A stretch of DNA of 64,000 nt, taken from positions 62,001 to 126,000 of the forward strand of contig JAPFBL010000379.1 of the NCBI GenBank assembly GCA_026182355.1, given 5' to 3'. The first letter of the stretch is position 1, and every line of letters starts with the position of its first letter. Origin of the DNA: Hermatobates lingyangjiaoensis. Lineage: Eukaryota > Arthropoda > Insecta > Hemiptera > Hermatobatidae. Made by a program: the position numbers and the translations under genes. Below the pieces are notes generated by a model. That model was not told where the DNA came from and did not search any database. It saw only the letters and a list, made by a program, of their open reading frames with translations. This document shows positions 731-61,210 of the stretch, piece by piece.

Positions 731-1050
731 CCAAGAGCCTGGTGAAACCTCAACATACCTTTACCTTTGATAACCTCCCTAGTTGTGAATATGTGTTATG
801 GACTCGTTATGTTTATTTTAGTTTATTTTAATTGTTATTCACTTTTCGATCATTAATAATTTTATATATTCTTTAACCTTGAAAATGGTCAACGATGACC
901 GAAACATGTCGGTGTATAGTAATAAAAATTTTGGTGAACTTATGTTTTTAGTTCCAGAACCATGGAAGTCAAGTATGAGAACACTTGAAAAACGGATAAG
1001 AAAAAGTGTAAAAGTTAAATTGGGCATTACTTTTAATAAAACGTGTATAT
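731..1050 (+). mobile_element. PLE 3' terminal repeat with hammerhead-like motif and ORF start
   Basis: After the coding tail comes AT-rich DNA, then a degenerate hammerhead at 876-913 (core read as CTTGAAAA, helix II GGTC/GACC, GAAA, stem III ACATGT). The beginning of the PLE N-terminal frame follows from about 906 (FLVPEPWKSSMRTLEKR). That frame stops at a (TA)n tract at about 1046. The same hammerhead-then-ORF-start order recurs throughout the window, so this is the pseudo-LTR, not a chance ORF. Confidence 0.65.
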
Positions 1051-1380
1051 ATATATATATATATATATTATTAAAAATTATGCCAATTTTAACTTTTGTT
1101 CTTTTTCGAGTTAATTTTTCAAGTTTTCTCACTATGGATTTCCACCTTTCTGGTAAAATGGTAAAATGGTAATGGTTTCTGGTAAAATGGTAAAATTTCT
1201 GGTAAAAATTAACTTTTGGTGAATTACTTTACATTTTACCAGAAAGGTGGAAATCCATAGTGAGAAAACTTGAAAAATTAACTCGGAAAAGAACAAAAGT
1301 TAAAATTGGCATAATTTTTAATAAAACATGTTTGATTGAAGGTCTGCTCCCAAAATACACACACATATATATATATATAT
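1046..1380. repeat. Inverted pair of PLE N-terminal segments
   Basis: About 1045-1158 (minus) and 1240-1345 (plus) encode nearly the same peptide, MRKLEKLTRKRTKVKIGII, in opposite directions. They are separated by a short spacer rich in GGTAAAATGG repeats. The plus arm continues to a GLLPKYTH motif and then a (TA)n tract. This is a head-to-head inverted duplication of the PLE terminal repeat. Confidence 0.7.
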
Positions 1381-1660
1381 ATAAACTAGAATTTAAAAAA
1401 GAACACATAGAAAGGAAACCACTGAACTCACTACTATATTTCGATGTCCTCGTCTTCAGGAAAAGAAGTGAATCGCTCCAAAGGCTGATAACGACTGATA
1501 TATATAAATTATATATATATATATATATATAAACTAGAATTTAAAAAGAACACATAGAAAAGAAATCACTGAACTCATATATATATATATATATATATAT
1601 ATTAAATATATATATATATATATATATATTGATAAAAGTATCGACCGTGGAATAGAAACA
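1381..1660 (-). mobile_element. Hammerhead-bearing small element with (TA)n tracts
   Basis: The sequence beginning AAACTAGAATTTAAAAAAG and ending at the hammerhead near 1460 recurs at 39.52-39.60 kb, partly at 1532-1580, and as a shorter piece near 18.75 kb. (TA)n tracts lie on both sides (1509-1530, 1578-1631). No coding sequence. It looks like a non-autonomous PLE derivative. Confidence 0.6.
1431..1462 (-). ncRNA. Hammerhead ribozyme motif, stem III ATAT
   Basis: On the minus strand: CTGAAGA, C, GA...TC helix II, GAAA, then TATAG. The ATAT stem III is followed by A as the cleavage-site nucleotide. Confidence 0.6.
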
Positions 1661-1699
1661 AAACTAAAATTTATCGGGACTCGGTAAGAAAAATTATAA

Positions 1700-1860
1700 G
1701 AGTCTTTAGAGTTGGTATTAAGACACAGTTTACAGTAACAGTTTAAAGTAGCTCTTGGTCCAAGTAAAAGTAAAAGGTTAAAGTAAAAGGACCAAGAGCT
1801 ACTTTAAACTGTTACTGTAAACTGTGTCTTAATACCAACTCTAAAGACTCTAATAATTTT
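1700..1860. repeat. Near-perfect palindrome
   Basis: About 1700-1765 is the reverse complement of about 1788-1856 (shared tract AGTCTTTAGAGTTGGTATTA). The spacer is AAGTAAAAG-rich. It sits directly upstream of a hammerhead and PLE ORF start, so it is probably the inverted arm of that terminal repeat. Confidence 0.75.
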
Positions 1861-1881
1861 TCTTTTTTTTTTTAATTAATT

Positions 1882-1921
1882 ACCCTGAAGATGACTGGAA
1901 GCCAGTCGAAACATGTCGGTT
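1882..1921 (+). ncRNA. Hammerhead ribozyme motif, stem III ACATGT
   Basis: CTGAAGA at 1885-1891, T, helix II GACTGG-aag-CCAGTC (six pairs), GAAA at 1908-1911, palindrome ACATGT at 1911-1916, C1917 as the expected cleavage nucleotide. ACC before the core can pair with GGT after the cut (helix I). It is one of the cleanest copies here. Confidence 0.75.
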
Positions 1922-2127
1922 CCCACTTAATTAACATTCTCCAACGTTTGGATGAAGGAAAGAAGAAGGTATTCAAAAACCTTGAAAAACTGGTGAAGAA
2001 AATGACATCAGTGAAATACTGTCAGTTGTTCAACGAAATATATATATTAGTGAAGGTGGTAGCAATCCTTCTTGCAAACATGTTTCTAAAAATTATATGC
2101 CAATTTCATGCTTGGTTACCGTTTTAG
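1891..2127 (+). pseudogene. PLE N-terminal segment (terminal-repeat copy)
   Basis: This open stretch of about 78 codons contains KVFKNLEKLVKKMTSVKYC, the basic, helical N-terminal pattern shared by about a dozen PLE copies in the window. Its first residues overlap the hammerhead, as in other copies, so the ribozyme lies at or upstream of the element's start codon. From about 2060 the sequence changes to a minus-strand fragment of the same segment, so the frame is a chimera of two insertions. No enzymatic domain remains. Confidence 0.5.
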
Positions 2128-2164
2128 AGTTTGGGCCTTCTTAGAGTTTACCTTTAAGTTTGGG

Positions 2165-2285
2165 CCAGTTGATTTTTTTATACCCCGAGGAACTGAGAAG
2201 AGCCTGTAGGACATTAGAGAAACTCTCTAGAAAGGAACCAAACATGAAATAGGCATAAAATTTTTAGAAATATATATATAGATTT
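2165..2285 (+). pseudogene. PLE N-terminal fragment
   Basis: The frame reads PEELRRACRTLEKLSRK, the same N-terminal pattern, and is broken by a stop before a short (TA)n. The reverse complement of the same sub-family lies at 35575-35710. Confidence 0.5.
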
Positions 2286-2450
2286 CACATTAACACGTGA
2301 AATAACAATCAATGATCAAACCACAATAAGAAAATGGGAAAACAAGACTAAGATCTTTCAACCGTAACAAGCGGTCTTCGTCAGAGTCAAAAACCCAACT
2401 GTCAGTTTTAACTCTGGTTTGATCATATATATATAATAAGTAAAACTTTA
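2286..2450 (-). mobile_element. AGATCT-class hammerhead element
   Basis: This matches the family with CACGTG...AATCAATGATCAAACCACAA, seen again near 31.7, 35.4, 36.1, 44.4, 47.5, 52.7, 53.1, 53.3 and 55.1-55.3 kb. The hammerhead lies at 2346-2390. The boundaries are (TA)n tracts. No ORF. Confidence 0.65.
2346..2392 (-). ncRNA. Hammerhead ribozyme motif, stem III AGATCT
   Basis: Minus strand: GACT, CTGACGA, A, helix II GACCG/CGGTT, GAAA, AGATCT, T, AGTC. GACT and AGTC form a four-pair helix I. Confidence 0.75.
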
Positions 2451-2454: not shown

Positions 2455-2660
2455 ACGCAAAACACAATACAGAAAAAGATAAAATACACATATACTAAAT
2501 TCAATATTTTAAACCGTTGTTCCTCCTTCCTTCCAGTCTTCTCCTGATGATGAAAAACAGTTCGAAATATTGACTTTAGTAAGTGTGTATTTTATGTTTT
2601 TTCTGTGAGTGTGTTTTGTGTAATTTTAGTTTTATAGTCCGTGTAGACTGTTTCTTCAAT

Positions 2661-2734: not shown

Positions 2735-2945
2735 GACTTAAATACCACAATAAACAATATATATATTAATTAAAATGCTCTAAGGCCTTTCATCACATCA
2801 TTCGAGAGCTAAATGAAACAACAAAAAAAAAGCAAGTGTTTTGTTTTGTTTTTTTTTTGTGGTTTCATTTAGCTCTCTGATGATGTTGTGACGAAAGGCC
2901 TTAGAATATTTTAATTTATATATATTGTTTATTGTGGTATATAAT
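2735..2945. repeat. Palindromic hammerhead unit, AGGCCT class
   Basis: The arms 2740-2822 and 2868-2940 are inverted copies around an A/T-homopolymer spacer. The right arm has an intact hammerhead; the left arm copy has lost the CUGANGA core. (TA)n tracts flank it on both sides. Confidence 0.8.
2873..2908 (+). ncRNA. Hammerhead ribozyme motif, stem III AGGCCT
   Basis: CTGATGA at 2877-2883, T, weak helix II GT/AC, GAAA at 2893-2896, AGGCCT, T, AGA. CT/AG pairing is available for helix I. Confidence 0.65.
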
Positions 2946-5262: not shown

Positions 5263-5463
5263 GTCTATGTTGGCTTGAGCGAGCTGTTTGGCAGACTTCA
5301 AGACGCCGATAAAAGCGCTCGGTATGCCAGCAAAGCCTATGACTTGTCACGCAACCTCCAGATGGGCGATCTGAACTCTCGCTACCACCGCATTGCACTG
5401 CTTCAGATGGCGACATCGCTGCGCAAGCAAGGCGAGCTGGGAGATGCTCACGACTACTGCGCG
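5263..5463 (+). CDS. rapsn: Rapsyn-like (AChR clustering scaffold), internal exon
   Basis: A 201-bp exon, 67 codons, phase 0 at both ends. The upstream acceptor is GGTTGCAG and the donor GCG|GTAAGT. It encodes two helical TPR-like units: VYVGLSELFGRLQDADKSA, then YHRIALLQMATSLRKQGEL and DAHDYCA. This fits the middle TPR array of rapsyn, which binds the cytoplasmic side of nicotinic acetylcholine receptors and clusters them at synapses; the signature is the helix pairs followed by an E.C..EA-type junction into the next exon. Codon use and GC content are clearly higher than in the flanking DNA, as expected for a constrained exon. It joins in frame to 56248-56346. The start codon and N-terminal myristoylation site are outside the window. 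Other TPR scaffolds are possible but fit less well. Confidence 0.75.
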
Positions 5464-8647: not shown

Positions 8648-9009
8648 ATTGTCATAAATCATCATCAGGTTATAGTATAATATAGTATAGTCAGGATATA
8701 GTAATAATAAACTAAGCTAAAATGACAGTTACAGTGATAATAATCATAATAACTACGGCACAGTAAAGTTAACAATTTGAAAGTCCCGCTGAGGTTGAGG
8801 TTGCAAAACTGTTACTCATGTTAAGTTACTCCAGGCCCTGTTACTGATTGGGCCTTGATCAGCTGAGTAACAGTTTTGCAACCTCAACCTCAACGGGACT
8901 TTCGAATTGTTTACTTTACTGCGCCGTAGTTATTATGATTATTATCACTGTAATTGTCATTGTAGCTTAGTTTATTATTGCTATATCCTGATTATACTAT
9001 ATTATACTA

Positions 9010-9046
9010 TAACCTGACGATGATTTATGAAAATCGAAATCTAGTT
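9010..9046 (+). ncRNA. Hammerhead ribozyme motif
   Basis: CTGACGA at 9014-9020, T, helix II GATT/AATC, GAAA, then TCTAG. Stem III is not a clean palindrome in this copy. Confidence 0.55.
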
Positions 9047-9094
9047 AGTAATTTTTATATCAATACTACATTTTTACTGAAGTGTTTTTAAACA

Positions 9095-9354: not shown

Positions 9355-9505
9355 TAAAATAAGCAGTGACACATAAACAGAAACACAACAAAGACTCACT
9401 TTTCAATATTTCGACCGTAATGGTGGTCGTCCTCAGGAGAAGAAGTGAATTGATGGAGAGACGACAGTCAACAGAAAAACAGAATACCAACAGAATTTTG
9501 GTATA
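9355..9505 (-). mobile_element. ATAT-class hammerhead element
   Basis: Outer sequence AGTGACACATAAACAG is shared with the palindrome at 3.0 kb and the plus-strand copy at 18.9 kb. It contains the ribozyme below and ends near (TA)n. Confidence 0.6.
9402..9440 (-). ncRNA. Hammerhead ribozyme motif, stem III ATAT
   Basis: Minus strand: CTGAGGA, C, helix II GACC/GGTC with an eight-base loop, GAAA, ATAT, T, GAAAAG. Confidence 0.7.
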
Positions 9506-16900: not shown

Positions 16901-16937
16901 CGGTTATTTTTGTAATTTGTAATTCGTTTTGTAGAAG

Positions 16938-16982
16938 CTTAGCTGATGATGAACACGAAGTGTTCGAAACGCGCAGAATAAA
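16938..16982 (+). ncRNA. Hammerhead ribozyme motif, ACGCGT class (mutated)
   Basis: CTGATGA at 16943-16949, T, helix II GAACAC/GTGTTC, GAAA, then ACGCGC, so the stem III palindrome has lost its last base. The downstream sequence GTGGAGACTTTG matches the arms of the 23.4-kb palindrome family. Confidence 0.6.
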
Positions 16983-17344
16983 AGGGTTTTTTTGTTGGGT
17001 GGAGACTTTGTTTTATCCCATTTAAACCAGGATGAGACTGAAAGCTGAACAACCATATATATTTTACGATGCTCTCCAGGGTGATGGGTAGTTGTCTAGA
17101 GTGAATGGTGCAATCAATCTGTATATTGTAGCCTTCAACATATCACATTGTAAGACATATATTCTTTGTGTGCTTAACAGCTAGATTACTTCTGAGTAAT
17201 AGTGGAGGGTTGAAAAATGACTTTTTCAGTTTTTCTTTTATGATATAACCGCCTACTATTTGTAGGTCATTTCTCGTTTGATTCATTAAATTTGAAATTT
17301 TTCACACCATAAATATTTATTAGCTTATAATATTAAAATACATT

Positions 17345-18844: not shown

Positions 18845-19015
18845 TATAGAGTTGAATGTCGTCCCTCCGTCAATTAACTTCAACTCCTGAGGACGACCGC
18901 CATGACGGTCAAAATATTGAAAAGTGAGTCTTTGTTATGTTTCTTTTTATGTGTCACAGTTTATATTAAGTGTAACCTTTCCTTTCGGACCGTTTTTCAT
19001 TTATCATGGTATATG
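18845..19015 (+). mobile_element. ATAT-class hammerhead element (decayed ribozyme)
   Basis: CTGAGGA at 18887-18893, helix II GACC/GGTC, then AAAA instead of GAAA, ATAT, T. The downstream sequence matches the 9.4-kb and 3.0-kb copies. Loss of G12 should kill cleavage. Confidence 0.6.
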
Positions 19016-23385: not shown

Positions 23386-23448
23386 AAACAATCTACTCAT
23401 TCTGAAGTAAAATGGATAAACCAACAAAAGTCTCCACACAAATGAAGT

Positions 23449-23494
23449 TTTATTCAACGCGTTTCGAACACTTTGTGTTCATCATCAGGAAGAC
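23449..23494 (-). ncRNA. Hammerhead ribozyme, stem III ACGCGT (left arm)
   Basis: Minus strand: CTGATGA, T, GAACAC-aaa-GTGTTC, GAAA, ACGCGT, T, GAATAAAAC. The core is intact. Confidence 0.8.
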
Positions 23495-23549
23495 ACTATA
23501 ATACAAATTATATCTAATTAGTTACAAAAATTAGAGTGAAAATTATAGT

Positions 23550-23598
23550 GTCTTCCTGATGATGAACACAAAGTGTTCGAAACGCGTTGAATAAAACT
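23550..23598 (+). ncRNA. Hammerhead ribozyme, stem III ACGCGT (right arm)
   Basis: CTGATGA at 23556-23562, T, six-pair helix II GAACAC/GTGTTC, GAAA, ACGCGT 23582-23587, T23588 as cleavage nucleotide. CTTC before the core pairs in part with GAA after the cut. Confidence 0.8.
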
Positions 23599-25990: not shown

Positions 25991-27833
25991 GCCATAAAAT
26001 TAATACCAATCAATGAAGAAAACCACGTTAGGCACTTAGCATCGGAAATAATAGATAAAACCATAAATAACAGCAAAAATAACGAAATTAAAAACCAAGA
26101 AAGTTATATTCTTAGAAATATCAAAAAGAAAATAAAAAAGTCAACGCGATTACAACTAAAGCGGACAAAGGTAACTCTATAATAGTGATAAATAAAGCAG
26201 AATACATTAAAAAAACGCTCGAATTTATAGGTAAAAACAAATAAGAAAAACTAAAGAACGACCCAACTAAAAAATTGCAGAATGAAATTAGGAACGTAAT
26301 CAACAAATCCAAAAATATAATAAAACCTAACGAATCATATAAGTATTTAAACATGAATCCAAATGCCCCTCAGTTAAAAGCTCAAATCAAAGAACATAAG
26401 GTAGGAGAGCCTATTAGGCCGGTTATAAATTATAGGAACGCACCCGCATATAAAATCTCAAAAGAATTAGCTAAAATAATAAAAAATAACGTTAATCTAC
26501 CAAATAGTTATAATATTAAAAACTCGGTTGATTTAGTAAATAAAATAAAATATATAAATATAAATGAAAAAACTAAATTAGTATCATTCGATATAGAAAA
26601 TCTGTATACATCAATCCCCGGTTCGGAAGTAATAAAACTAATAGAAAAATAGATAAACAAAATGGTCAGAATAAAAATATAGATGAAATAATAAAATTAA
26701 CTACTACAACTTTAAAGCAAAACTATTTTAAATTTAATAATGAGTTCTATTTAGCGAAAGATGGATTAGGAATGGGACACCCAACATCTGCTATTCTATC
26801 AGAAATATTCTTACAGGAACTAGAAGGAGTATTTGTCAATATTTTAAAAGAGAAATTCAATGTAATTCATTATAACAGAGACGTGGATGACTCCTTCCTA
26901 ATTATAAATAACCCTAGCGAAGAGAATATAATAAAAATAAAAAATTATCTCAATTCGATAAATAATAAAATTAAATTCACTCAATAAATAGAATCAAACA
27001 ATAAAATAAATTTTCTAGACCTAACTATTGAAAAAACCGAAAATAAACTTAAATTTAAAATATTTAGAAAACCAACCGCGATTGATATAACCATACATAA
27101 TTCTTCAATTCATTCGAAGCCACAAAAAATTTCTGCCTTTCGGTATACGATAGATCGATGAATCAAAACAACTATAATAAGGAATTAAATAAAATTAAAA
27201 AATTGCAACGAATAACGGTTATAATGCAAGCTTAATAGAAAAAATAAAATTAATGACAAATACTAAAGCTCTAACAATAATGAAAACGCGTCTATAACAT
27301 ACCTAGGAAATATTAGTTAAAAAATAGCGAACCTAATAAAACGATACAACATAAATGTAGGATTTAAAACTAATAATTCTATATGTCAAATATTAACTTG
27401 CTCAACCGAAAATGTAATTAATAAATATGAAAAAAGCGGGGTATATAAATTAAAGTGTAGTGATTGTAATCAAATATATATTGGACAGACCCTAGGGAAG
27501 AACCCTAAAAATAAGATTTAAAGAACATCTTAAGGACTATTTAAATAATACAAATAAATCAAATTTGCAAACCACTTGACTGAACACGGACATACCATCT
27601 GACAGCTTAGAAAACACAATGTACTTACTACAGACAGGACAGAAAGGACAGCGACTCAACATAACTGAACAGATAGAAATATATAAACATAAAAATGGGG
27701 GTAAATTAATAAAAGAACAAATAAATTACCAATCCGATATTTTATGTAAATTACTAATAAAAATAAAAAGACGATTAGACAGGCAGGATGACGAAGTTAA
27801 AAAATATAAAAAACCCAAACTAGATAATAGCTA
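25991..27833 (+). pseudogene. Penelope-like element 1: RT plus GIY-YIG
   Basis: Read in order with frameshifts and stops: AITTKADKGNSIIVINKAEY (start of RT, about 26135-26240), KAQIKEHKVGEPIRPVINYR (26370-26440), TKLVSFDIENLYTSIPGSE (26570-26630), GLGMGHPTSAILSEIFLQELE (26766-26825), NRDVDDSFLI where YVDD is expected (26875-26905), INFLDLTIEK and FRKPTAIDIT (27000-27090), then GVYKLKCSDCNQIYIGQTLG (27440-27500), the GIY-YIG start, and a C-terminal EQIEIYKHKNGGKLI. Such enzymes copy the element at a nicked target. The Tyr-to-Asp change next to the catalytic aspartates and at least five frame breaks make it dead. It is more AT-rich than element 3. Confidence 0.85.
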
Positions 27834-30094: not shown

Positions 30095-30200
30095 TTTAAA
30101 AAAAAAATTACGTCTCCACATAAAAGATGTTAAAAAACATAACGCATTTCGAACACTTACTGTCTTCTTCAGGTTTACATCTAAAAAAGAAACATTCATA
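30095..30200 (-). mobile_element. ACGCGT-class hammerhead half-element
   Basis: The minus arm of the 23.4-kb family: CGTCTCCACATAAAAG, then the ribozyme at 30138-30172 (CTGAAGA, A, helix II partial GACA...TGTTC, GAAA, ATGCGT). The opposite arm is missing. Confidence 0.55.
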
Positions 30201-35344: not shown

Positions 35345-35570
35345 ATATATAATATATCAATGATCAAACCACAATAAGAAAATGGGAAAACAAGACTAAG
35401 ATCTTTCAACCGTAACAAGCGGTCTTCGTCAGAGTCAAAAACCCAACTGAAACACTAGATGCAGAGAACATCTGGTGAGGGGTTGAGAACACCCCTCTTA
35501 GTCTTGTTTTCCTATTTTCTTATTATGGTTTGATCATTGATTGTCATTTCACGTGTTTATGTGAAATCTT
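35345..35570. mobile_element. AGATCT-class hammerhead element, inverted arms
   Basis: The minus arm (35355-35440) with the ribozyme is followed by body and a plus arm (35500-35570) that has lost its ribozyme. It ends at a short TA tract. Confidence 0.7.
35390..35440 (-). ncRNA. Hammerhead ribozyme motif, stem III AGATCT
   Basis: Minus strand: GACT, CTGACGA, A, GACCG/CGGTT, GAAA, AGATCT, T, AGTC. Same sequence as the 2.35-kb copy. Confidence 0.75.
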
Positions 35571-35974: not shown

Positions 35975-36140
35975 CTTCCCTCCCACTCTTCTCAACCCCT
36001 CACCAGATGTTTACTGCAACTAGTGTTTTAGTTGGGTTTTTGACTCTGACGAAGACCGCTTGTTACCGTTGAAAGATCTTAGTCTTGTTTTCCCATTTCT
36101 TATTGTGGTTTGATCATTGATTGTTATTTCACGTGTGTAT
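35975..36140 (+). mobile_element. AGATCT-class hammerhead element, plus strand
   Basis: Body CTCAACCCCTCACCAGATGT, the ribozyme, and the outer sequence TGTGGTTTGATCATTGATTG. Confidence 0.65.
36040..36088 (+). ncRNA. Hammerhead ribozyme motif, stem III AGATCT
   Basis: CTGACGA at 36046-36052, A, helix II GACCG.../CCGTT (one mismatch), GAAA, AGATCT, T, AGTC. Confidence 0.7.
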
Positions 36141-36149: not shown

Positions 36150-36500
36150 TTACATATATATATATATATATATATATATACACTTTTTCGTTGGAAATAC
36201 GATACAAAACGGACAAAAATAGTTCAATATAGACAAAGAAACATAGAGAAATCAAAAGAACACACTTAAAGTCTCTAATTTTTGGTTTGAACCGTCTTCA
36301 GGAGAAGTCTTCAGCTTATTTTCTGTGACCGGGCGCGCATGCGGCAACACTGTTGGTCTCCAACCGTCTCTGAACCAGTGCGCTTGGTTTCCCTCTCTTA
36401 TCTCTCCTGAAGACGGTTCAAACCGAAAATTAGAGACTGTAAGTGTGTTCTTTTGATTTCTCTATGTTTCTTTGTCTATATTGATATATATATATATATA
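36150..36500. mobile_element. AATT-class palindromic hammerhead element
   Basis: The arms 36215-36305 and 36400-36480 are inverted copies; the centre contains GC-rich GACCGGGCGCGCATGCGGC. (TA)n tracts lie at both ends (36155-36180, 36485-36508). The right-arm ribozyme is intact; the left has AAAA for GAAA. Confidence 0.75.
36400..36440 (+). ncRNA. Hammerhead ribozyme motif, stem III AATT
   Basis: CTCTC, CTGAAGA at 36407-36413, C, GGTT/AACC, GAAA at 36425-36428, AATT, A, GAGAC. CTCTC pairs with GAGA as helix I. Confidence 0.75.
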
Positions 36501-37134: not shown

Positions 37135-37260
37135 TATTAGGTAGGTTTTCTTTTTTGAGGGCTAGATCATATAAAAGAAAATAAACTCCTTCCTAGGCCA
37201 ACGTTTCGATATATTTGTACATCATCTTCAGGGCTTGGAATGTGTGCTATTGGTTATTTA
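37135..37260 (-). mobile_element. ACGT-class hammerhead element
   Basis: The minus-strand ribozyme at 37195-37236 is preceded by GAGGGCTAG and TAAACTCCTTCCTAGGCC, which recur in the palindrome at 9.7 kb. Confidence 0.6.
37195..37238 (-). ncRNA. Hammerhead ribozyme motif, stem III ACGT
   Basis: Minus strand: CTGAAGA, T, GAT...ATC helix II, GAAA, ACGT, T, GG. Confidence 0.65.
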
Positions 37261-39082: not shown

Positions 39083-39149
39083 TCAACACGTATCACTTTA
39101 TTGTACACTTTTTTCTTTTTTATCGACGTTTGGTCTAGCTTCAATAATA

Positions 39150-39193
39150 CAACACCGACGTTTCGTCTGTATTTGTGGACATCTTCAGGGCTA
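39150..39193 (-). ncRNA. Hammerhead ribozyme motif, stem III ACGT
   Basis: Minus strand: CCCTGAAGA, T, GTC...GAC helix II, GAAA, ACGT, C, GG. Confidence 0.65.
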
Positions 39194-39391
39194 CATCAAT
39201 ACAGAATTTAATTACAATAACATGAAAAGTAATTATATTACATTAATTAATTAATATAATTATGTATAATATATTAAGGTAATTATGGCAATACTGTACA
39301 GTATTATGTATATAAGGTAATTATGTATATTAATTAAATAATGTAATATAATTGCTTTTGATGTTATTGTAATTAAATTCTGTATTGATGT

Positions 39392-39432
39392 AGCCCTGAA
39401 GATGTCTACAAGTAGAGATGAAACGTCGGATT
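39392..39432 (+). ncRNA. Hammerhead ribozyme motif, stem III ACGT
   Basis: CTGAAGA at 39396-39402, T, GTCTAC/GTAGA(G)AT (one disturbed pair), GAAA, ACGT, C, GG. Confidence 0.6.
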
Positions 39433-39487
39433 AAAGGTGTTGTATTATTGAAGCTAGACCAAACGTCGATAAAAAAGAAAAATTGTG

Positions 39488-39527: not shown

Positions 39528-39690
39528 GATTTAAAAAAGAATACATAGAAAGGAAACCACTGAACTCACTACTATATTTCGATGTCCTCGTCTTCAGGAA
39601 AAGAAGTGAAGCGATTCACTTTTATGTGAATGTTTTTTCACTCCTTTCTATGTGTTCTTTTTTAAATTCTAGTTTATTCAGTTCGAAGAA
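39522..39690. mobile_element. ATAT-class hammerhead element, inverted arms
   Basis: AAACTAGATTTAAAAAAGAA at 39523 is mirrored by TTTTTTAAATTCTAGTTT at 39657-39674. The ribozyme is in the left (minus) arm only. Confidence 0.7.
39568..39602 (-). ncRNA. Hammerhead ribozyme motif, stem III ATAT
   Basis: Minus strand: CTGAAGA, C, GA...TC, GAAA, ATAT, A, GTAG. Same as 1431-1462. Confidence 0.6.
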
Positions 39691-39715: not shown

Positions 39716-39946
39716 ATACTTTTTTTCGTTGAAAATACGATCCAAAACGGACAAATATAGTTCAATATAAACAAAGAAACATACAGAAATCAAAAGAACA
39801 CACTTACAGTCTCTAATTTTCGGTTTGAACCGTCTTCAGGAGAGATAAGAGAGGGAAACCAAGCGCACTGGATCAGAGACGGTTGGAGACTGTAAGTGTG
39901 TTCTTTTGATTTCTCTATGTTTCTTTGTTTATATATATATATATAT
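39716..39946. mobile_element. AATT-class hammerhead element, inverted arms
   Basis: Same design as the 29.4-kb and 36.2-kb copies, with CCAGTGCGCTTGG-type central sequence. Bounded by (TA)n tracts. Confidence 0.7.
39809..39845 (-). ncRNA. Hammerhead ribozyme motif, stem III AATT
   Basis: Minus strand: CTCTC, CTGAAGA, C, GGTT/AACC, GAAA, AATT, A, GAGAC. Intact core. Confidence 0.75.
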
Positions 39947-40807: not shown

Positions 40808-40887
40808 CACAATTAAAAGAAACGGTCCAGCGGACTTTTTTACAATAAAATAAAAAACGAAGGAAACACACAGAAAGACACAGACAT

Positions 40888-40932
40888 AACTCACATCGAT
40901 ATTTCGACAATCGTCGTCATCAGGAGGTGCGA
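40888..40932 (-). ncRNA. Hammerhead ribozyme, stem III ATAT (left arm of PLE 3)
   Basis: Minus strand: CACCTC, CTGATGA, C, GAC-gatt-GTC, GAAA, ATAT, C, GATGTGAG. Helix I has five or more pairs with one mismatch. Confidence 0.75.
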
Positions 40933-41014
40933 AGAGCGAAGAGTCCCGCAGGAAGACAGGGCGGTACTGAACTCGGAAACCGCAGCCAGTACCCCACCAC
41001 TGTATCCCCGATGT

Positions 41015-42603
41015 CCTGTTTTCTACCTGCTCCCTAAAGTCCACAAGCCCTTCAACATGCCTGACTCCCCTCCCGCCGGTAGACCTATCGTTTCCAGTTA
41101 TGGCTGCCTTACAGAAAGACTTTCCGCCTTCATTGATCACTTCCTACAGCCTCTAGTTCGGAACCAACCTTCTTTCTGCAAAGACACTTTCCATTTTCTC
41201 CAAATTCTTAAAAATCTTTCTCTTCCCTCTACCCTTGATCATCCTCTTCTCATGGTTGCCATGGACGTCACTTCTCTCTATACTTCAATCATTCATTCTG
41301 AAGGTCTGGACGCTCTGCGATACTTTCTTGATGGCAGAACCGCACCCCCTTAATCCTTCCACATCCTTTCTAGTCTCTTTGGCTGATTTCGTGCTACAGC
41401 ATAATGTCTTTCAGTTTGAGGGTCGTTATTACCTTCAAACCAGAGGCACAGCTATGGGTACGATTATGGCCCCTTCTTACGCTAATCTTTTCATGGCCAG
41501 ATTAGAGCAGGATTTCCTGGCCACCTGTCAACTTCTTCCACTCCTTTATCTCCGTTTTATTGATGATATTTTCTTCATTTGGCCCCATGGCAAACATAAC
41601 TTAGAACTTTTCCTACACTACTTTCAAAATTTCTGCCCCTCCATCACTTTCACTTACGACATCTCCGACAGACTTATCACCTTTCTTGACGTTGACGTTA
41701 CTTTTGACAATGGACACTTCTTGACTTCCGTACATATAAAACCCACCAACTCCCAACAGTACCTCCATTACAATAGTTGCCATCCATCCCATGTTAAAAA
41801 GTCTATACCTCGATCCTTGTCCCTCCGTATTCACAATATCTGCAATAATCTCCAAGACCGCAGACATCACCTTAACCTCTTAAAGGACAAATTTTCTGAA
41901 CGAGGATATCCTCGCTCCTTCATTGATAGTCGTGTTTTACCGGCTGACATCTCCCACCAACCAGACCCAAGAGGGATAGAAGTAACACTTCCTTCTTCCT
42001 GACAACCTACTTCCCTGGCGCTTATAAGCTTCGTGCTGTTATTAAGGAGTCTTTTCCGATTCTGTCTACTTCTACTTCTACTTCTTCCATCTTTAATCAC
42101 CCCCCTTCTATTTCCTACCGTAAACCTGCCAATCTAAAAAGCATTTTCTCTCATATTTCCCCTCAGCCTTCCAATCCTGTTCTGGAATGAAACAATGTGG
42201 ACGCCGTGGCTGTCAAACTTGCCTGATTGTAAATCCTAATCCTTCCTTCGATTCCCCTCTCCACCATAGTTCCTACCCGGTTCAGGTCAATTCCTCCTGT
42301 ACCTCGAGCAACTGTGTTTACCGACTGGATTGCACTCAGTGTGACTCCTTTTGCGTTGGCTTAACTTCTAATAAGTTGAGCCTTCGTATGAATGGTCATA
42401 GGGCTTCAGTCGGTCAACGCAGTAACTATCCTGTAGCCATCCATGCGAACTCGCATGGACTCAGTTTCAATGACTGTTTCAGGGTTCAGATCCTGAAACA
42501 GATCCCCGAATCCAACAATAAAGTTACCCTAAGAGCTTCAGAGGAGGCATACATATGCTTACTTGATGCTCGCTCTTCCCCCGGACTCAACCTCAACCGA
42601 TAA
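41015..42603 (+). pseudogene. PLE 3 reverse transcriptase and GIY-YIG endonuclease
   Basis: Nearly complete apart from the N-terminus. In order: PVFYLLPKVHKPFN and PPAGRPIVSS (41015-41100), LLMVAMDVTSLYTSI (41245-41290; frameshift near 41350), YYLQTRGTAMGTIMAPSYAN (41428-41485), YLRFIDDIFFIW with both catalytic aspartates (41550-41585), ITFLDVDVTF (41676-41705), ISYRKPANLKS (42110-42140, another frame after a stop at 42000), then CGRRGCQTC, NCVYRLDCTQC, FCVGLTSNKLSLRMNGHR and a conserved Glu-bearing tail SEEAYICLLDARSSPGLNLN (42190-42600). This combination is diagnostic of Penelope-like retroelements. The GIY-YIG half is open for 138 codons. Two or three frame breaks make it non-coding today, but it is the best consensus source here. 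It is richer in C and T than element 1. Confidence 0.9.
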
Positions 42604-42904: not shown

Positions 42905-42953
42905 TCTTCGCACCTCCTGATGACGACGATTGTCGAAATATCGATGTGAGTTA
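42905..42953 (+). ncRNA. Hammerhead ribozyme, stem III ATAT (right repeat of PLE 3)
   Basis: CGCACCTC, CTGATGA at 42917-42923, C, GAC-gatt-GTC, GAAA, ATAT, C, GATGTGAG. Helix I pairs CGCACCTC with GATGTGAG with two mismatches. Confidence 0.8.
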
Positions 42954-42987
42954 TGTCTGTGTCTTTCTGTGTGTTTCCTTCGTTTTT

Positions 42988-42989: not shown

Positions 42990-43077
<88 letters not shown>

Positions 43078-49329: not shown

Positions 49330-49440
49330 CTGTATATGAACAGACTAACTTGTAACTTGTGTTTATAGGAGAAAACACAGGCTTTCGACCTCTTAGGTCA
49401 TCTTCAGGTGAATGAAAATAAATAACAGCCTAATAAGAAT
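49330..49440 (-). mobile_element. Hammerhead-bearing segment
   Basis: Minus strand at 49379-49412: CTGAAGA, T, GACCT-aag-AGGTC (five pairs), GAAA, AGCCTG. The strong helix II supports a former ribozyme; stem III is no longer a palindrome. Confidence 0.55.
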
Positions 49441-52164: not shown

Positions 52165-52670
52165 TCAAATATATATATATATTCGTAAATTTTGGTAGCA
52201 GTCCTTCTTTGACACACACATTGAAAATGACACCAAATTTAGCTGATACCTGTTCCTTAACAAGTTTCTCAATTTTCCTAAATAACACTCTCGTTATTTC
52301 GTCTACACAATAAAGTATATCTCCTATGGTGGACATGTTTCGAATGATCAACATTCATCATCAGGACATGAATAAGATCTAAGGTGAAATATCTGGTTTA
52401 TATATACATGGAGAAAGTAGAAGGGTTTGTTTTCCATAAAGTTTAAGAATGGTGGGCGTTAATCCTTATTTCAGATAAGGATTCAGATAACCAGATATTT
52501 CACCTTAGATCTTATTCACGTCCTGATAATGAATGTTGATCATTCGAAACATGTCCACCATAGGAGATGTACTTTATTGTGTAGACGAAATAACGAGAGT
52601 GTTATTTAGAAAAATTGAGAAACTTGTTAAGAAACAGGTATCAGCTAAATTTGGTGTCATTTTAAATAAT

Positions 52671-53325: not shown

Positions 53326-53480
53326 ATATGGACTAATTTACCACAATGAAACAATTTTGTTAAACAATGCTCTAAGGTCTTTCGTCAACACATCGTCACT
53401 TGCTCTCTGACGATGTGTTGACGAAAGGTCTTAGAGCATTGTTTTACAAAATTGTTTCATTGTGGTAAATTAGTCCATCT
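53326..53480. mobile_element. AGGCCT-class palindromic hammerhead unit
   Basis: Arms 53328-53400 and 53408-53479 are near-perfect inverted copies with a centre of a few bases (TCACTTGCTC). It has no coding sequence. (TA)n lies on the left. Confidence 0.8.
53403..53440 (+). ncRNA. Hammerhead ribozyme motif, AGGCCT class
   Basis: CTGACGA at 53407-53413, T, weak GT/AC helix II, GAAA, AGGTCT (self-pairing only with G-U), T, AGAG. Confidence 0.55.
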
Positions 53481-55280: not shown

Positions 55281-55480
55281 ATATTGTAAACAGGAAAACG
55301 ATCCAAAAGGACAAAAAACGTTTCACGATGAATCACGAACACAGAACTAAGGAACAAACACATTTACTGTCTCTAATTTTCGGTTGAACCGTCATCAGGA
55401 GAGTTGAGATAGGGACACCAAGCGCACTTGTGAAGCGACGGTGGGAGACCAACCGTCTCCATATATATATATATAGAAAA
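55281..55480 (-). mobile_element. AATT-class hammerhead element
   Basis: GGAAAACGATCCAAAAGGACA outer sequence, ribozyme, then AAGCGCACTTG and a GACGGTGGGAGACC block; ends at (TA)n. Confidence 0.65.
55368..55404 (-). ncRNA. Hammerhead ribozyme motif, stem III AATT
   Basis: Minus strand: CTCTC, CTGATGA, C, GGTT/AACC, GAAA, AATT, A, GAGAC. Core intact. Confidence 0.7.
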
Positions 55481-55567
55481 TTGTCACAATAACACGTGAT
55501 ATAAATATTCAGGTAACTCACCACAAATTAGAGAAGATAGTCGCTCTAAGGCCTTTCGTTTTCACGT

Positions 55568-55963
55568 TCATACAGAATTCCTTGCAAGGATTGCGAGTTG
55601 GCTTATATTGGACAGACGGGAAAAGGAATGGATACAAGGATTAAGCAACATCAGTATTCAGTTAGAAGACAAGATGATAAAAGTGCCTTGTTCCTACACA
55701 TTAGAGACAAAAATCACATAATTAACTGGAAAGAAGCAAAGGAGTTGGTTTTTATGTCATGTGAAAGAAGAAGAAACATTGTTGAAAGCGCCCTCATAAA
55801 AGACTTTTCTAAGAACTTGGTCAACACTAGTCCAGGCCTTTTTAAATTAGATGAATTTCTAATTGAAGGAATTATCAAACAAATCAAGACTATTTCAACA
55901 GTTATAGGGAAAAATACTGTCAATGATGCCAATCTTACTCCTTCTTTAAATCAAAATTCATAA
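55568..55963 (+). CDS. PLE 4 GIY-YIG endonuclease domain (open, 5'-truncated)
   Basis: An uninterrupted frame of about 132 codons ending TAA: SYRIPCKDCELAYIGQTGKG, MDTRIKQHQYSVRRQDDKSA, LFLHIRDKNHIINWKEAKEL, then ERRRNIVESALIKDF and a C-terminal tail. The signatures are (Y)RIPC..C...YIGQTG with R in xxRIKQH, and the downstream E in ESALI, together the GIY-YIG active-site pattern of PLE nucleases. It starts inside the gene with no proper start codon or RT, so it is not expected to work, but the absence of stops suggests a recent insertion. The AGGCCT-class hammerhead lies 30 bp after the stop. Confidence 0.8.
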   Translation, partial: SYRIPCKDCELAYIGQTGKGMDTRIKQHQYSVRRQDDKSALFLHIRDKNHIINWKEAKELVFMSCERRRNIVESALIKDFSKNLVNTSPGLFKLDEFLIEGIIKQIKTISTVIGKNTVNDANLTPSLNQNS

Positions 55964-55987
55964 CCTGCTTACAACTTGTATTCACTT

Positions 55988-56028
55988 GCTCTCTGACGAC
56001 GTGAAAACGAAAGGCCTTAGAGCGACTA
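55988..56028 (+). ncRNA. Hammerhead ribozyme, stem III AGGCCT (PLE 4)
   Basis: CTGACGA at 55993-55999, C, GT-gaaa-AC helix II, GAAA, AGGCCT, T, AGAG. TCT/AGA pairing is possible for helix I. The mirror arm at 55.55 kb keeps GAAAGGCCTTAG but not CUGANGA. Confidence 0.65.
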
Positions 56029-56247: not shown

Positions 56248-56346
56248 GAGGCAACTCGCTTAGCCCTGGTGTCTGGGGACCAGTGCAGCTACGCCAAGAG
56301 TATCAGGATCATGGGGGATATCTACAGGAAGAAGTCTGAGATCAGC
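56248..56346 (+). CDS. rapsn: Rapsyn-like, next internal exon
   Basis: A 99-bp exon, 33 codons, phase 0 at both ends. Acceptor TTTGTTTCAG|GAG and donor AGC|GTCAGT. It encodes EATRLALVSGDQCSYAKSIR, IMGDIYRKKSEIS. Joined to the exon at 5263-5463 it gives HDYCA-EATRLALVSGDQ, which continues the TPR helix exactly as in rapsyn (C..EA..LAL..GD....A..L...ADI...). No later exon (further TPRs, coiled coil, RING-H2) is visible before the window end. The intron between the two exons is 50,784 bp. Confidence 0.75.
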
Positions 56347-56838: not shown

Positions 56839-57171
56839 GTTAGTAAACATCTTAGGAAAAGTATTAAGTCTTCACATAAAAAAGTTTATTACAAGAAACT
56901 AAACAACGCGTTTCGAACACTGATGTTCTTCTTCGGGTTGCATCTGCTCTACTGGGGCCGTTGTTCGGGAGGTCAGTCCTTGCTTGGTCTCACCTTCCGA
57001 ACAACCACCCCAGGCAGAGCAGATGTAACCTGAAGAAGAAACACTAAGTGTTTGAAACGCGCTGTTTAGTTTCTTGGAATGAACTTTTTTGCGTGAAGAC
57101 TTAATACTTTTCCTAACATGAGTAAATACCACGTTATAACAGATTGCACAGTTAAGGAAGTTAGTAAACAT
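56839..57171. mobile_element. Palindromic hammerhead retro-unit with 12-bp TSD
   Basis: The 309-bp unit 56851-57159 is flanked by GTTAGTAAACAT at 56839-56850 and 57160-57171. The arms (56855-56945, 57020-57115) mirror each other. The centre holds an inner inverted GC-rich pair (GCATCTGCTCTACTGGGG / CCCCAGGCAGAGCAGATG). The tail AGATTGCACAG is shared with the 23.4-kb unit. Confidence 0.85.
57026..57066 (+). ncRNA. Hammerhead ribozyme motif, ACGCGT class (mutated)
   Basis: CTGAAGA at 57030-57036, two bases, AAACAC-taa-GTGTTT, GAAA, ACGCGC. Its left-arm twin (56920-56950) has CGAAGA for CTGANGA. Confidence 0.6.
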
Positions 57172-57439: not shown

Positions 57440-57545
57440 CCAAACAGAACACCTCTTCTTCTTTTCCTTCTCCTGAAGACGACGGGTTCGAAATATTGAA
57501 ATATGTTGTGTGTTGTTTCTACATGATCTTTTGTTGTAACCGTTT
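57440..57545 (+). mobile_element. ATAT-class hammerhead element
   Basis: Ribozyme followed by GTGTGTTGTTTCTACATGATC, shared with the copy at 57.78 kb. Confidence 0.6.
57469..57508 (+). ncRNA. Hammerhead ribozyme motif, stem III ATAT
   Basis: CTGAAGA at 57473-57479, C, GA...TC helix II, GAAA, ATAT, T, GAAAT. Confidence 0.6.
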
Positions 57546-57584: not shown

Positions 57585-57860
57585 GGACAACCTTTCAAAG
57601 ATTACAAGAGAAGAACAGTAGAAACATTCAAAACTCACTTCAATATTTCGACCTCATCGTCATTAAGAGAAGAAGATGTTCATGACAACTCGAGTTCAAC
57701 TCTGAGTTGCTGTTTACTAGCCGAGCAGAACTTATCTTATTCTTCTTCTCCTGATGACGATGAGGTCGAAATATTGAAGTGAATTGTGTGTGGTTTCTAC
57801 GGATCTTTTCTTGTAATAGTTTGAACTTATACATATTCAACTGTATCTCATATCTACAGA
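57585..57860. mobile_element. ATAT-class palindromic hammerhead element
   Basis: Arms 57590-57690 and 57735-57850 mirror each other. The left ribozyme (minus, 57645-57675) has TTAATGA for CTGATGA; the right is intact. Confidence 0.7.
57745..57788 (+). ncRNA. Hammerhead ribozyme motif, stem III ATAT
   Basis: CTTCTC, CTGATGA at 57751-57757, C, GA...TC, GAAA, ATAT, T, GAAGTGA. Confidence 0.65.
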
Positions 57861-59080: not shown

Positions 59081-59084
59081 TTTG

Positions 59085-59430
59085 AAATTTTATAGACGGA
59101 AGAAGTTAAAGAGGAGCATATAAGTAAATGCATTTATCTCCAGAAAGGACGAAAAATAACTTTTTACGTCTAGTATTCGTATAATAATTTAAGACATTTA
59201 ATCCTTCTACTTCAAAATAGCGCAATAATGGATAGAAAACGAGATTAATTAGAAAACACGATTATAATCCAGGTTCTCCAACCTAATCATTTTATTGATA
59301 TCGATATTTCAATTCGAAGAGAAATAAGATCGGGAAGAGTTAGGGTGGTAAGCCTGATTTTTAAATCCCAGCTCTATTTCATATTATTCCACTCTGTTTT
59401 GTTTACATAATTTTATTTAGCTTTCTTAAA
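59085..59430 (+). repeat. Dispersed repeat, direct copy of 37881-38300
   Basis: Shares GAGTTAGGGTGG, AAGCCTGATTTTTAAATCCC and flanking blocks with the 38-kb copy. No coding capacity. Confidence 0.6.
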
Positions 59431-59839
59431 CCTTTATTTTGGATTATTATGAGTTATTATTCATTGCTTTTCTATTAATTTATTTAATAATTTATTATTG
59501 AACAATTATAAATAAAATAATAATTATATAAATAATAAAAATAATTTGCTATTATTTATTTAATAAATTAAGACAGATCTGTCTAATTTCTTTTCTTTTT
59601 GGCCTGAATAATTAATAAAAAGTAATTATGTTTAAACAAAACATGCTTCTATTAAAAAACAATAAGACTGGCTGGCTGTGTTTGTGGTTTTCTTTTACTT
59701 TATACCTGTATGGTGTATATTGTTTGTGTTCACTATTTATGCATCAATAAGTTGATTAAAGCCTTCAAAATGGCAAACGGGTTGAGATGAAGTAGGCAGT
59801 ATGGTGAAAGGTCGTCAAGAGTGGTAGTATAATTGTGGT

Positions 59840-60485
59840 AGAGCTAGTGAAGTCCTCTTATCGTCACAAAACCCCTTAAATCTGTCACAAACTACACTTT
59901 CTCTCCCTAATGAGAGTTTCCCTATTAACTCTGCCAGTCAAAGGCACACTTTACTGACATTTCAAACAGGTTAGCATCCCATTGCTTCAAACCAATCCTC
60001 TTCGCACCATTTATTTGACTGGCCTCCTACTAGGTCTACAGTTTAAGGACTACCACAGGATCCGTGAGGATTCGATCGTCCCCATCCGAAGAGGGAAAAT
60101 TTCCCGTTACCCCGGGAGTAGGGGTTGCAATGAAACACCATTTATTTGTGTAAAATCAAAAACAAGAAATCAGTTAGTAAAAGTTACTTCTTAAGGCAAG
60201 GAAGAAAAAGAGACAATTCCTCACTTTCTCTGTTAATGCCCTGGTTTGGCTCAAAGAAGAAAAGGAGCATTAGGAGATTATTTCTTTGACCATCTTCAGA
60301 ACTTAGCATCCATTGGTATTAGGGATCTGTCTGGATTTATTGTTCTCTCGAGATGGGTTCGAGTGGACCAGGGACGGGGGAGAATAGCCCCAATTCTTCT
60401 TTGTGGTATCACAAGAGGCCGGCTTGCGGCCTATGTGTGTTCTCTTTCGGGACGTCCACTGTAACCTAACCTAACCTAACCTACT
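59840..60485 (+). pseudogene. LINE C-terminal remnant with (CCTAA)n 3' tail
   Basis: From about 60208: ETIPHFLC, a stop, CPGLAQRRKGALGDYFFDHL, QNLASIGIRDLSGFIVLSRW. HFLxxCP...RR...LG followed by a hydrophobic helix is the usual tail of Jockey/I-type LINE ORF2. A TAA stands where an acidic residue is expected. Upstream frames (59982-60194) are probably the decayed RNase H/RT region. The 3' end GGCCTATGTGTGTTCTC, CACTGTAACC leads into TAACCTAACCTAACCTAACC. Confidence 0.7.
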
Positions 60486-60905
60486 GCTTAAGGCTTTTTC
60501 ATGATTAAAAGTAAGAAAGTAAACATGATATTCGACAAAATACATTACGAAAATTAATCAAAACTTAGCTAAGTTGGCAGAAAAGGTATCACACATGGTA
60601 AATAGGCAATGAATGAAGTACATTTATTGAAAAGGTGAGTTCAAGAAGTCTTTTTTGTTACTGTCTGCTTGTTTGCTTGAATGCTCTGTTAGAGGTATCC
60701 TCGTAGAATTATTTTGAAATTTATGCTTATCTGTTTGAAAATTATGTTTTTTCGTCTCAATAAGTAATTATGTTTAAACAATAAATGTTTGTTTTTAAAT
60801 AAGAACAATTAAACTGGATATTTTAACATCCTTTTGTGGTTTTCTTTCTTTTTACTGTATTTTTGTTTGATTTTGTTTTCTGGTTTCCCTTGATTGATAT
60901 ACTTA
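60486..60905. other. No recognisable feature
   Basis: AT-rich with long T-rich runs (60840-60900). No gene supported. Confidence 0.45.
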
Positions 60906-60909
60906 CTTC

Positions 60910-61145
60910 TTACTTCTTAGTTCGAGCTTCTAAAGCTCTCCGTTTCGATGCTCGGTGTCTCCGGTATAGGTTGGCAGCTATTTGCCAGACTTTGGTGTTG
61001 GTCAGGATTCTTTTCAGAGTGATCTCATCTCCTAGCTTCTTCTTTAGTACTTCTCGCTCGCGCAGGAAATGCGAGCACTGGAGAAGAATATGTTCTAGAC
61101 TTCTTGGTTGATATTCCGTGGATATATTTGTTTTTGCTCTACTTA
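60910..61145 (-). pseudogene. LINE C-terminal fragment
   Basis: The minus-strand frame reads EYQPRSLEHILLQCSHFLRE, REVLKKKLGDEITLKRILTN, TKVWQIAANLYRR. (S)xEHILLxCxxxxxxRxxL is the non-LTR retrotransposon C-terminal motif. It is a different LINE family from the one at 60.2 kb. The upstream reverse transcriptase is absent. Confidence 0.7.
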
Positions 61146-61164
61146 TTCCTTTAATAAATTGTTT

Positions 61165-61210
61165 TTTAGCCTTGAAAATGCCAAACAATTTTTGGCAAAA
61201 CGTCGGCGAA
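61165..61210 (+). repeat. Decayed hammerhead, ACGT class
   Basis: CCTTGAAAATGCCAAACAAT, TTTTGGCAAAACGTCGGCG: helix II GCCAAA/TTTGGC, AAAA for GAAA, ACGT, C, GG. The core CTTGAAAA has the same form as the copy at 0.88 kb. Confidence 0.45.

Follow-up and report, generated by a model that had tools for sequence, protein, structure and literature searches.

The stretch of DNA analyzed here (the window) comprises 64,000 nucleotides (nt) of the genome of Hermatobates lingyangjiaoensis, positions 62,001 to 126,000 of contig JAPFBL010000379.1 in a 910-Mb assembly. It carries two exons of a rapsyn-like host gene, coding remains of Penelope-like elements (PLEs), and numerous hammerhead-ribozyme motifs (Table 1), which are probably short insertions left by these elements. 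The two exons are adjacent in the protein, and further exons lie in the flanking sequence. The best matches of their joined translations are insect proteins; the top two named ones, both from members of the Hemiptera, are the “43 kDa receptor-associated protein of the synapse homolog” of Diaphorina citri (76% over the full length of the query) and a protein of Ranatra chinensis (86% over 86% of the query).

Hammerhead motifs in the window and in the genome

Both strands of the window were scanned for the CTGANGA and GAAA boxes enclosing a stem II of 2 bp or more, with no more than 2 unpaired nt after CTGANGA. This combination is found 33 times, 19 on the plus strand and 14 on the minus strand, and is absent from the reversed and the complemented window, in good agreement with the sequence-only reading of this DNA, which had noted about thirty copies with both core boxes on both strands. 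That reading also described a palindrome and then A, C, or T; a palindrome after GAAA is present in 24 of the 33 copies, and one of these three nucleotides comes next in 22 of the 24. A separate descriptor scan for palindrome-type motifs returned 20 in the window, compared with none when the window was reversed and 0.5 on average (maximum, 3) in 30 dinucleotide shuffles. This descriptor placed stem II directly after CUGANGA and mostly missed it; the stem was found instead at an offset of 1 nt.

A covariance model (CM) of the core and stem II, trained on 20 copies that all lie outside the window, matched the window at 53 places at E values of ≤1 and at 47 at ≤0.1, spanning positions 871 to 63067. 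The matches include 32 of the 33 copies from the pattern scan; the exception, at 10981, is probably a chance match. The earlier figure of more than fifty motifs is therefore matched by the CM count at E values of ≤1, whereas the strict pattern scan gives 33. The Rfam models yielded no matches in the window at the gathering score, and the 62 matches obtained at E values of ≤10 include no hammerhead family. The Rfam matches at E values of ≤10 were mostly those of microRNA models to palindromes and simple repeats and were taken as chance; the top microRNA-model matches fall in a near-perfect palindrome at 38455-38792, with 166-nt arms that are 100% complementary and 6 nt apart.

Relative to the two rapsyn-like exons, 5 of the 33 copies come before, 25 lie in the 50.8-kb intron between them, and 3 come after. 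The same pattern scan found 38 copies in 80 kb of flanking sequence, i.e., 30.4 per 64 kb, and 14 copies (17.9 per 64 kb) in ten 5-kb samples spread over the genome, with a single match in the reversed control. The window and its flanks are thus about twice as dense as the spread sample, from which ∼255,000 copies per genome can be extrapolated, a figure based on just 14 copies. The CM at E values of ≤0.1 had 51 matches in the 80 kb of flank and 18 in the spread samples, with some of the training copies lying there. The 910-Mb genome has 125,937 occurrences of the strict pattern CTGANGAYGN{4,20}CGAAA, versus 388 of the reversed pattern, and the looser pattern CTGATGAN{4,20}GAAA occurs 92,201 times, versus 8,856 in the control.

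Together with the reversed, complemented, and shuffled controls for the window, these genome-wide controls rule out a chance origin of the motifs, which are real. A local swarm inside one intron, as they had been described, is likewise ruled out by the exon positions and by the densities in the flanks and the spread samples: the motifs occupy three stretches of the rapsyn-like gene, the flanks are equally dense, and the strict matches are abundant throughout the genome. Nothing in these figures sets this intron apart.

Ribozyme fold and families

Base pairing was evaluated on 122 unique core matches collected without requiring any stem and reduced to 54 non-redundant ones, of which 50 had sufficient length for the stem II count and 25 had the palindrome required for stem I; 500 shuffles served as controls. 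Pairs 2 and 3 of stem II, counted with one extra nucleotide after the CUGANGA box, are formed in 41 and 36 of the 50 sequences, respectively, above both the means (24.0 and 20.8) and the maxima (31 and 30) of the shuffles. Pair 1 (39 of 50; shuffle mean, 37.1) is uninformative because some of the loci had been retrieved with a pattern that fixed the pyrimidine and the first G-C pair. In stem I, pairs 1 to 3 are formed in 21, 21, and 16 of the 25 sequences (shuffle means, 14.8, 14.3, and 8.9); for pair 1 the shuffle maximum was 19, and the counts for pairs 2 and 3 were each attained in 1 of the 500 shuffles. Pair 4 is weak, its count being reached in 14 of the 500 shuffles, and pair 5 is at the chance level (181 of 500). 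Covariation of stems I and II across unrelated copies supports a hammerhead-type fold, as originally proposed.

In 128 of the 138 unique copies collected from 297 kb of sequence, one unpaired nucleotide lies between CUGANGA and the start of stem II, which is not the canonical Rfam arrangement, where stem II follows directly. With this extra nucleotide, the first three pairs of stem II are formed in fractions of 0.87, 0.86, and 0.79, compared to 0.29, 0.77, and 0.40 without it. Stem III is palindromic in 81 of the 122 core matches (25 of the 54 non-redundant ones) and is mostly a bare palindrome, i.e., a minimal form, with such words as ATAT, ACGT, ACATGT, AGGCCT, AGATCT, AATT, ACGCGT, and ATTAAT. 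The following position H17 is G in only 5 of the 81 palindromic copies and in 1 of the 25. The core occurring above chance, the covarying stems I and II, and the diminished palindromic stem III followed by U and H17 are all features of the minimal type I hammerheads of PLEs.

Grouping by flank similarity divides the 138 copies into 30 groups, of which three (families 0, 1, and 2) hold 101 copies. The original remark that the motifs are not one copied repeat is thus correct in part.

Association with PLEs and the shape of the copies

The window contains four coding pieces of reverse transcriptase (RT) and/or GIY-YIG endonuclease; a total of 106 relatives were found for the RT match at 41157-41999, most of them proteins with an RT domain. 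In all the sequence examined, there are 23 PLE-like intervals; 13 of them are followed by a hammerhead within 900 nt, and the first such hammerhead is always on the same strand (13 of 13). Most of the loci were picked for containing hammerheads, so the presence of a hammerhead is biased here, and its strand is not. Ten intervals have no hammerhead in range, and at least 3 of these are second views, in overlapping loci, of intervals already counted. The coding pieces linked to the motifs, the AT-rich target, the optional tail of ∼30 to 40 bp, and the head-to-head inverted repeats described below are all typical of PLEs and support the view, already put forward in the sequence-only reading, that the hammerheads are parts of these elements.

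The 5′ splice-site word GTRAGT is found within 40 nt after GAAA in 44 of 50 family 0 copies, at 7 to 12 nt in 41 of them (in the window, e.g., those at 36407, 42917, 1459, and 9436), and in 103 of 5,000 random windows. The other families mostly lack it (none of the 36 copies of family 1 and none of the 15 of family 2 have it). The family 0 hammerhead may abut the donor site of a PLE intron, so that its insertions may also bring in cryptic splice sites. Just ahead of the RT piece that starts at 26131 lies a 53-bp tandem repeat (25205-26006; 15 copies, 99% match).

An inverted neighbor is found only upstream, i.e., in the outward-facing arrangement, in 71 of the 138 copies, only downstream in 6, on both sides in 7, and on neither side in 53 (other, 1); a refined count of orientations gave 67 outward-facing copies versus 4. 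Of the 67, 58 belong to an almost uninterrupted palindrome that has no long spacer. An inverted neighbor within 1.5 kb is present for 21 of the 33 window copies. The median position of the outer edge, counted from C3, is +85 in family 0 (n = 23), +75 in family 1 (n = 23), and +91 in family 2 (n = 8); within each of these families, the motif lies at a nearly fixed distance from the 3′ edge of the copies. TA repeats of at least 5 units are common right past this edge, being found at +40 to +160 in 75 of 134 copies, at −160 to −40 in 37 of 133, and in 584 of 5,000 random windows. At another locus (L011, 1096-1409), the head-to-head arrangement is doubled; its four hammerheads have the same core, and stretches of it are up to 100% alike, so that it is possibly recent.

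The same data bear on the possibility that the motifs belong to non-LTR retrozymes, which are small tandem repeats with hammerheads that cut the transcripts into circular RNAs. Retrozymes carry the same class of ribozyme and co-occur with PLEs in animal genomes (PMC7229834, PMC7761336), and 28 of the 138 copies have a direct neighbor within 1.5 kb. However, no tandem array overlaps any of the 33 copies in the window, so that the 150- to 450-bp tandem repeats expected of retrozymes are not seen, the prevailing arrangement is inverted and outward-facing, stem III is minimal, and PLE coding pieces precede some of the copies. An origin from retrozymes therefore appears highly improbable.

The aligned copies, read by eye from partial output, end at two discrete 3′ positions, a short one and one ∼30 nt further on. 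The additional segment is a small hairpin, with TTTCAC..GTGAAA in family 1 and GTCC..GGAC in family 0. By analogy, the longer end fits the known “tail” of PLEs, an optional segment of 30 to 40 bp between two RT start sites (PMC11167929); in the Penelope elements of Adineta vaga, a 31-bp tail is present on one of the inverted pseudo-long terminal repeats (pLTRs) (PMC3846280).

Tails were scored with probes from families 0 and 1 only, with a cutoff score of 16; random windows score ≤12 in 95% of cases and ≤30 in 99%, with true tails among them. Seven duplicate entries, due to pairs seen again in overlapping loci, were removed from the earlier set, and the fresh set was unaffected. The earlier set of 44 pairs includes 23 with one tail, 1 with two, and 20 with none; the fresh set, 17 pairs from forty newly retrieved stretches, includes 16 with one, none with two, and 1 without a tail. 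Accordingly, among the 40 pairs that are tailed at all, 39 have a single tail (23 of 24 in the earlier set and 16 of 16 in the fresh set), versus the two-thirds expected if the arms were tailed independently half the time (chance of 2e-6 for all pairs and 0.0015 for the fresh set). Since the earlier set also supplied the probes, the fresh one provides a cleaner test. The sole two-tailed pair, at 39848 in the window, is still counted, and one of its arms is exactly at the cutoff and has TA right after the short end. A count by search words on 27 pairs of families 0 and 1 gave 20 with one tail, none with two, and 7 with none, 3 of which show a diverged tail by eye. Among solo copies, tails are present on 4 of 8 in family 1 and 3 of 19 in family 0.

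Two readings of the pairs can be considered. Head-to-head pLTRs with palindromic junctions are the most frequent arrangement in rotifer PLEs, for which self-priming has been proposed (PMC3846280): one cDNA snaps back on itself, or an antisense template is used, and the second arm copies the first. This would agree with the near-continuous palindromes around 58 of the 67 outward-facing copies, and a snap-back loop could also yield unequal arm ends. Arms copied from each other should, however, share their 3′ end, so that the one-tailed pairs argue against the published self-priming, which we regard as unlikely here, and for two separate primings at two sites of the RNA.

At the inner ends of the arms, exact matches to both 17-nt arms of family 1 head-to-head pairs with a gap of no more than 30 nt occur at 4,581 places in the genome (control, 0). 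Among the 50 such pairs listed, the arm ends differ in 41; the junction contains filler in 33, is blunt in 4, and shows an overlap in 13, with some of the filler possibly being diverged arm sequence. Ends at −14 to −18 from C3 are seen in 61 of the 100 arms. Similarly, 23 of 82 family 1 5′ edges are at −14 to −20, with TCAGT, which we take to be an initiator word, at −18. The 5′ edges also gather at TCA[GCT]T words in the CGACGATTGTC (8 of 33, at −54), GAGGACATC (4 or 5 of 15, at −39), and AACAACAGTTC (5 of 10, at two words) copies; no such gathering is seen in the GGTTCAAACC, GGATTACCC, GACCGCC, and GAACACAAAG copies. These 5′ edges just upstream of the hammerhead may represent RNA 5′ ends or RT stops. 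At the cleavage site (+34/+35 from C3), family 1 edges show no clear peak (5 of 87 at +31 to +35), and cleaved RNA was rejected as the template for this family; many loci were retrieved by hammerhead patterns, so that edges downstream of the core are under-sampled in this count.

For the host gene, the sequence-only reading had suggested that the motifs give the rapsyn pre-mRNA multiple self-cleavage sites, and sense copies could in principle cut this transcript and thereby lower or time its expression. There are 19 sense copies, 10 of which have the palindrome followed by A, C, or T, and 14 antisense ones, so that sense copies are neither depleted nor clearly enriched. In addition, the flanks are similarly dense, the motifs are abundant genome-wide, stem III is minimal, and the hammerhead of a lizard PLE was reported to cut only with its protein present (PMC11167929). 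The only pair that was folded, at 23380-23670, is predicted to form a long hairpin (−175.5 kcal/mol; z score, −31.9) with the hammerhead buried inside the duplex, and head-to-head pairs in host transcripts would be expected to fold on themselves. A role in rapsyn expression thus seems very doubtful; cleavage of the pre-mRNA by lone copies is possible but unsupported, and most of the insertions in host introns are predicted to be passengers without effect. A natural misreading is thereby corrected, since a high density of hammerheads in an intron does not have to imply a regulated gene.

Also at the rapsyn-like gene, a minisatellite of 67 copies of a 40-bp unit (5486-8156) begins 22 nt past the end of the first exon in the window, and a RING-type rapsyn-like exon in another locus (L012, 2950-3260) has its 3′ end tandemly repeated about 4 times. 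Other features of the window are a hAT transposase dimerization domain on the minus strand (40198-40596; E value, 4.9e-11) and a 30-bp tandem repeat (63708-64000) that codes for a degenerate 10-residue repeat in a frame open to the end of the window.

Table 1. Hammerhead motifs, PLE coding pieces, and host exons in the window (window coordinates; CM E, E value of the covariance model)
Feature	Position	Strand	Evidence
Hammerhead, GAGGACATC subfamily (family 0)	1423..1467	-	CM E 4.9e-4
Hammerhead, palindrome ACATGT, H17 = C, singleton	1877..1927	+	CM E 1e-4
Hammerhead, family 1 (AGATCT), long tail	2340..2392	-	CM E 2.9e-5
Hammerhead in inverted-repeat element 2441-2634	2536..2583	+	CM E 1.2e-4
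Hammerhead (AGGCCT) in inverted-repeat element 2724-2957	2869..2912	+	CM E 0.044
Rapsyn-like exon, host gene	5263..5463	+	Protein comparison
Hammerhead, core present, no palindromic stem III	9006..9055	+	CM E 2.5e-4
Hammerhead, GACCRCC-type subfamily (family 0)	9393..9444	-	CM E 8e-7, best in window
Hammerhead, family 2 (GAACAC stem II)	16935..16985	+	CM E 7.6e-4
Hammerhead, family 0	18879..18930	+	CM E 1.2e-4
Hammerhead, family 2 (ACGCGT), left arm of head-to-head pair with 23548..23598	23446..23496	-	CM E 1.3e-6
Hammerhead, family 2 (ACGCGT), right arm of pair with 23446..23496	23548..23598	+	CM E 1.3e-6
PLE RT remains; no hammerhead within 900 nt downstream	26131..27212	+	RVT_1 E 0.0021 on 26577-26984, under Pfam cutoff
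Hammerhead, family 2	28750..28800	+	CM E 4.4e-5
Decayed hammerhead, family 2	30131..30180	-	CM E 0.023
PLE GIY-YIG coding piece	30431..30883	+	GIY-YIG E 0.0014, under Pfam cutoff
Hammerhead, 172 nt downstream of same-strand GIY-YIG coding piece	31047..31096	+	CM E 3.9e-6
Hammerhead, family 1, tail-less arm (35432) of pair with 36046	35388..35440	-	CM E 2.9e-5
Hammerhead, family 1, tailed arm (36046) of pair with 35432	36038..36090	+	CM E 9e-4
Hammerhead, decayed inverted partner of 36407	36264..36309	-	CM E 2.6e-4
Hammerhead, GGTTCAAACC subfamily (family 0, AATT)	36399..36444	+	CM E 7.6e-6
Hammerhead (ACGT)	37188..37239	-	CM E 3.7e-4
Hammerhead (ACGT), left arm of head-to-head element 39110-39482	39145..39196	-	CM E 2.1e-5
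Hammerhead (ACGT), right arm of element 39110-39482	39388..39439	+	CM E 1.9e-4
Hammerhead, GAGGACATC subfamily	39561..39605	-	CM E 4.9e-4
Hammerhead, GGTTCAAACC subfamily, tailed	39802..39847	-	CM E 7.6e-6
Hammerhead, inverted left terminal repeat of PLE 40845-42995, long tail	40886..40931	-	CM E 1.4e-4
PLE coding remains, RT to endonuclease	40958..42600	+	RVT_1 E 1.7e-6 on 41157-41999, just under Pfam cutoff
Hammerhead, right terminal repeat of PLE 40845-42995, 317 nt past coding remains; short end at TA repeat	42909..42954	+	CM E 1.4e-4
Hammerhead, no palindromic stem III	49367..49415	-	CM E 9.2e-4
Hammerhead (ACATGT) in inverted repeat 52220-52398 / 52489-52667	52322..52372	-	CM E 5.6e-6
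Hammerhead, no palindromic stem III	53399..53442	+	CM E 0.07
Hammerhead, GGTTCAACC subfamily (AATT)	55362..55406	-	CM E 4.1e-5
PLE GIY-YIG coding piece	55550..55960	+	GIY-YIG E 5.5e-4, under Pfam cutoff
Hammerhead, 33 nt past GIY-YIG piece; stem I 7 bp, AGGCCT	55985..56028	+	CM E 0.55
Rapsyn-like exon, donor end approximate	56248..56346	+	Protein comparison
Hammerhead, family 2, in inverted repeat 56848-57120	57022..57073	+	CM E 0.15
Hammerhead (ATAT), direct neighbor of 57751	57465..57509	+	CM E 2.1e-4
Hammerhead (ATAT)	57743..57787	+	CM E 2e-5

A proposed model of PLE insertion and its relation to known systems

The motifs of the window can be interpreted, with a probability of about three in four, as short stubs of PLE cDNA whose reverse transcription started downstream of the cleavage site and which often lie head to head in twos. 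The PLE protein would cut TA-rich DNA and copy its own RNA from a start ∼40 to 90 nt downstream of the predicted cleavage site. If the RNA begins, or the enzyme stops, just upstream of the hammerhead, the result would be a stub of ∼100 nt or more with the whole ribozyme inside. The other DNA end would be primed at the other RNA start site, giving an inverted partner, so that the two stubs meet head to head. The two 3′ ends of the stubs would then correspond to the two RT start sites known from the lizard PLE, and each insertion would involve two separate primings. Hammerheads would be so common because they lie between the 5′ end of the RNA and the RT start, and nearly every insertion, however short, would carry one. 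A cDNA that runs through the cleavage site would also imply that its template had not been cut there.

A more specific version, which we consider about evenly balanced, is that PLE insertion is asymmetric. Priming at the outer site would leave the tail at one end of the break, the opposite end would be primed from the inner site, and the two cDNAs would be joined head to head, each insertion planting a ribozyme. If true, asymmetric two-ended priming would replace the self-priming model and account for the >120,000 hammerhead motifs in one 0.9-Gb genome.

Several observations weigh against the cDNA-stub interpretation. The Pfam scores of the PLE pieces are below the curated cutoffs. Tails are missing from 20 of the 44 earlier pairs, for which the probes came from families 0 and 1 only, and inward-facing and two-way inverted neighbors do exist (6 and 7 of the 138 copies). 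An interpretation of the 5′ edges as RNA starts agrees with only half of the 8 subfamilies (4 fit and 4 do not), in a comparison made without a random control. Finally, in assays of PAc, the Poseidon PLE of Anolis carolinensis, the start site was reported to be alike on both strands, which does not predict a one-tail rule (PMC11167929). For PAc, ribozyme mutants had no effect on insertion, and the ribozyme cut only with the protein present (PMC11167929); these results agree with an uncut template.

The minimal PLE hammerheads, the tails, and the head-to-head pLTRs are already known. No statement of an exclusive one-tail rule for PLE pairs was found in the limited part of the open-licence literature that was covered. 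The role of PLE hammerheads is termed “still a mystery” (PMC7761336), and the PLE replication model is left open (PMC3846280). This genome supplies thousands of short insertions with two comparable ends, in which the one-tail pattern distinguishes two-ended priming from self-priming by sequence alone and copies that cross the cleavage site argue for uncut RNA as the template. The density of hammerheads in it is notable. The axolotl genome is ∼35 times larger than this 0.91-Gb genome, and a 2017 paper on small PLE hammerheads reportedly counted ∼150,000 such variants over all genomes. Type I hammerheads in non-LTR retrozymes amount to 126,247 motifs in axolotl and ∼5,000 in mussel, where they lie in tandem repeats (PMC7229834); by contrast, the 125,937 strict matches found here are PLE-linked and often inverted.

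The copies described here share the CUGANGA/GAAA core, the diminished stem III, the association with PLEs, and the mostly dispersed location in non-coding DNA with the minimal type I PLE hammerheads (Cervera and de la Pena 2014, via PMC7761336 and PMC10085705), minimal forms of which are said to cleave through dimers (PMC7761336). The extra unpaired nucleotide before stem II distinguishes them from the canonical form; PAc, with its start codon after G8 and stem II at the beginning of the open reading frame (ORF), appears to carry an extra nucleotide as well (PMC11167929). Unlike the Penelope families of Adineta vaga, which have few copies and for which self-priming has been proposed (PMC3846280), this genome has thousands of pairs, whose tail states favor two primings. 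Another similar system is PAc, which also has a hammerhead at the pLTR-ORF junction, an RT start downstream of it, an AT-rich target, an optional tail between two start sites, and cutting and extension of both DNA strands; it differs in showing no strand difference in the start site (PMC11167929), whereas here a tail, if present in a pair, is nearly always on one arm only and short stubs are common.

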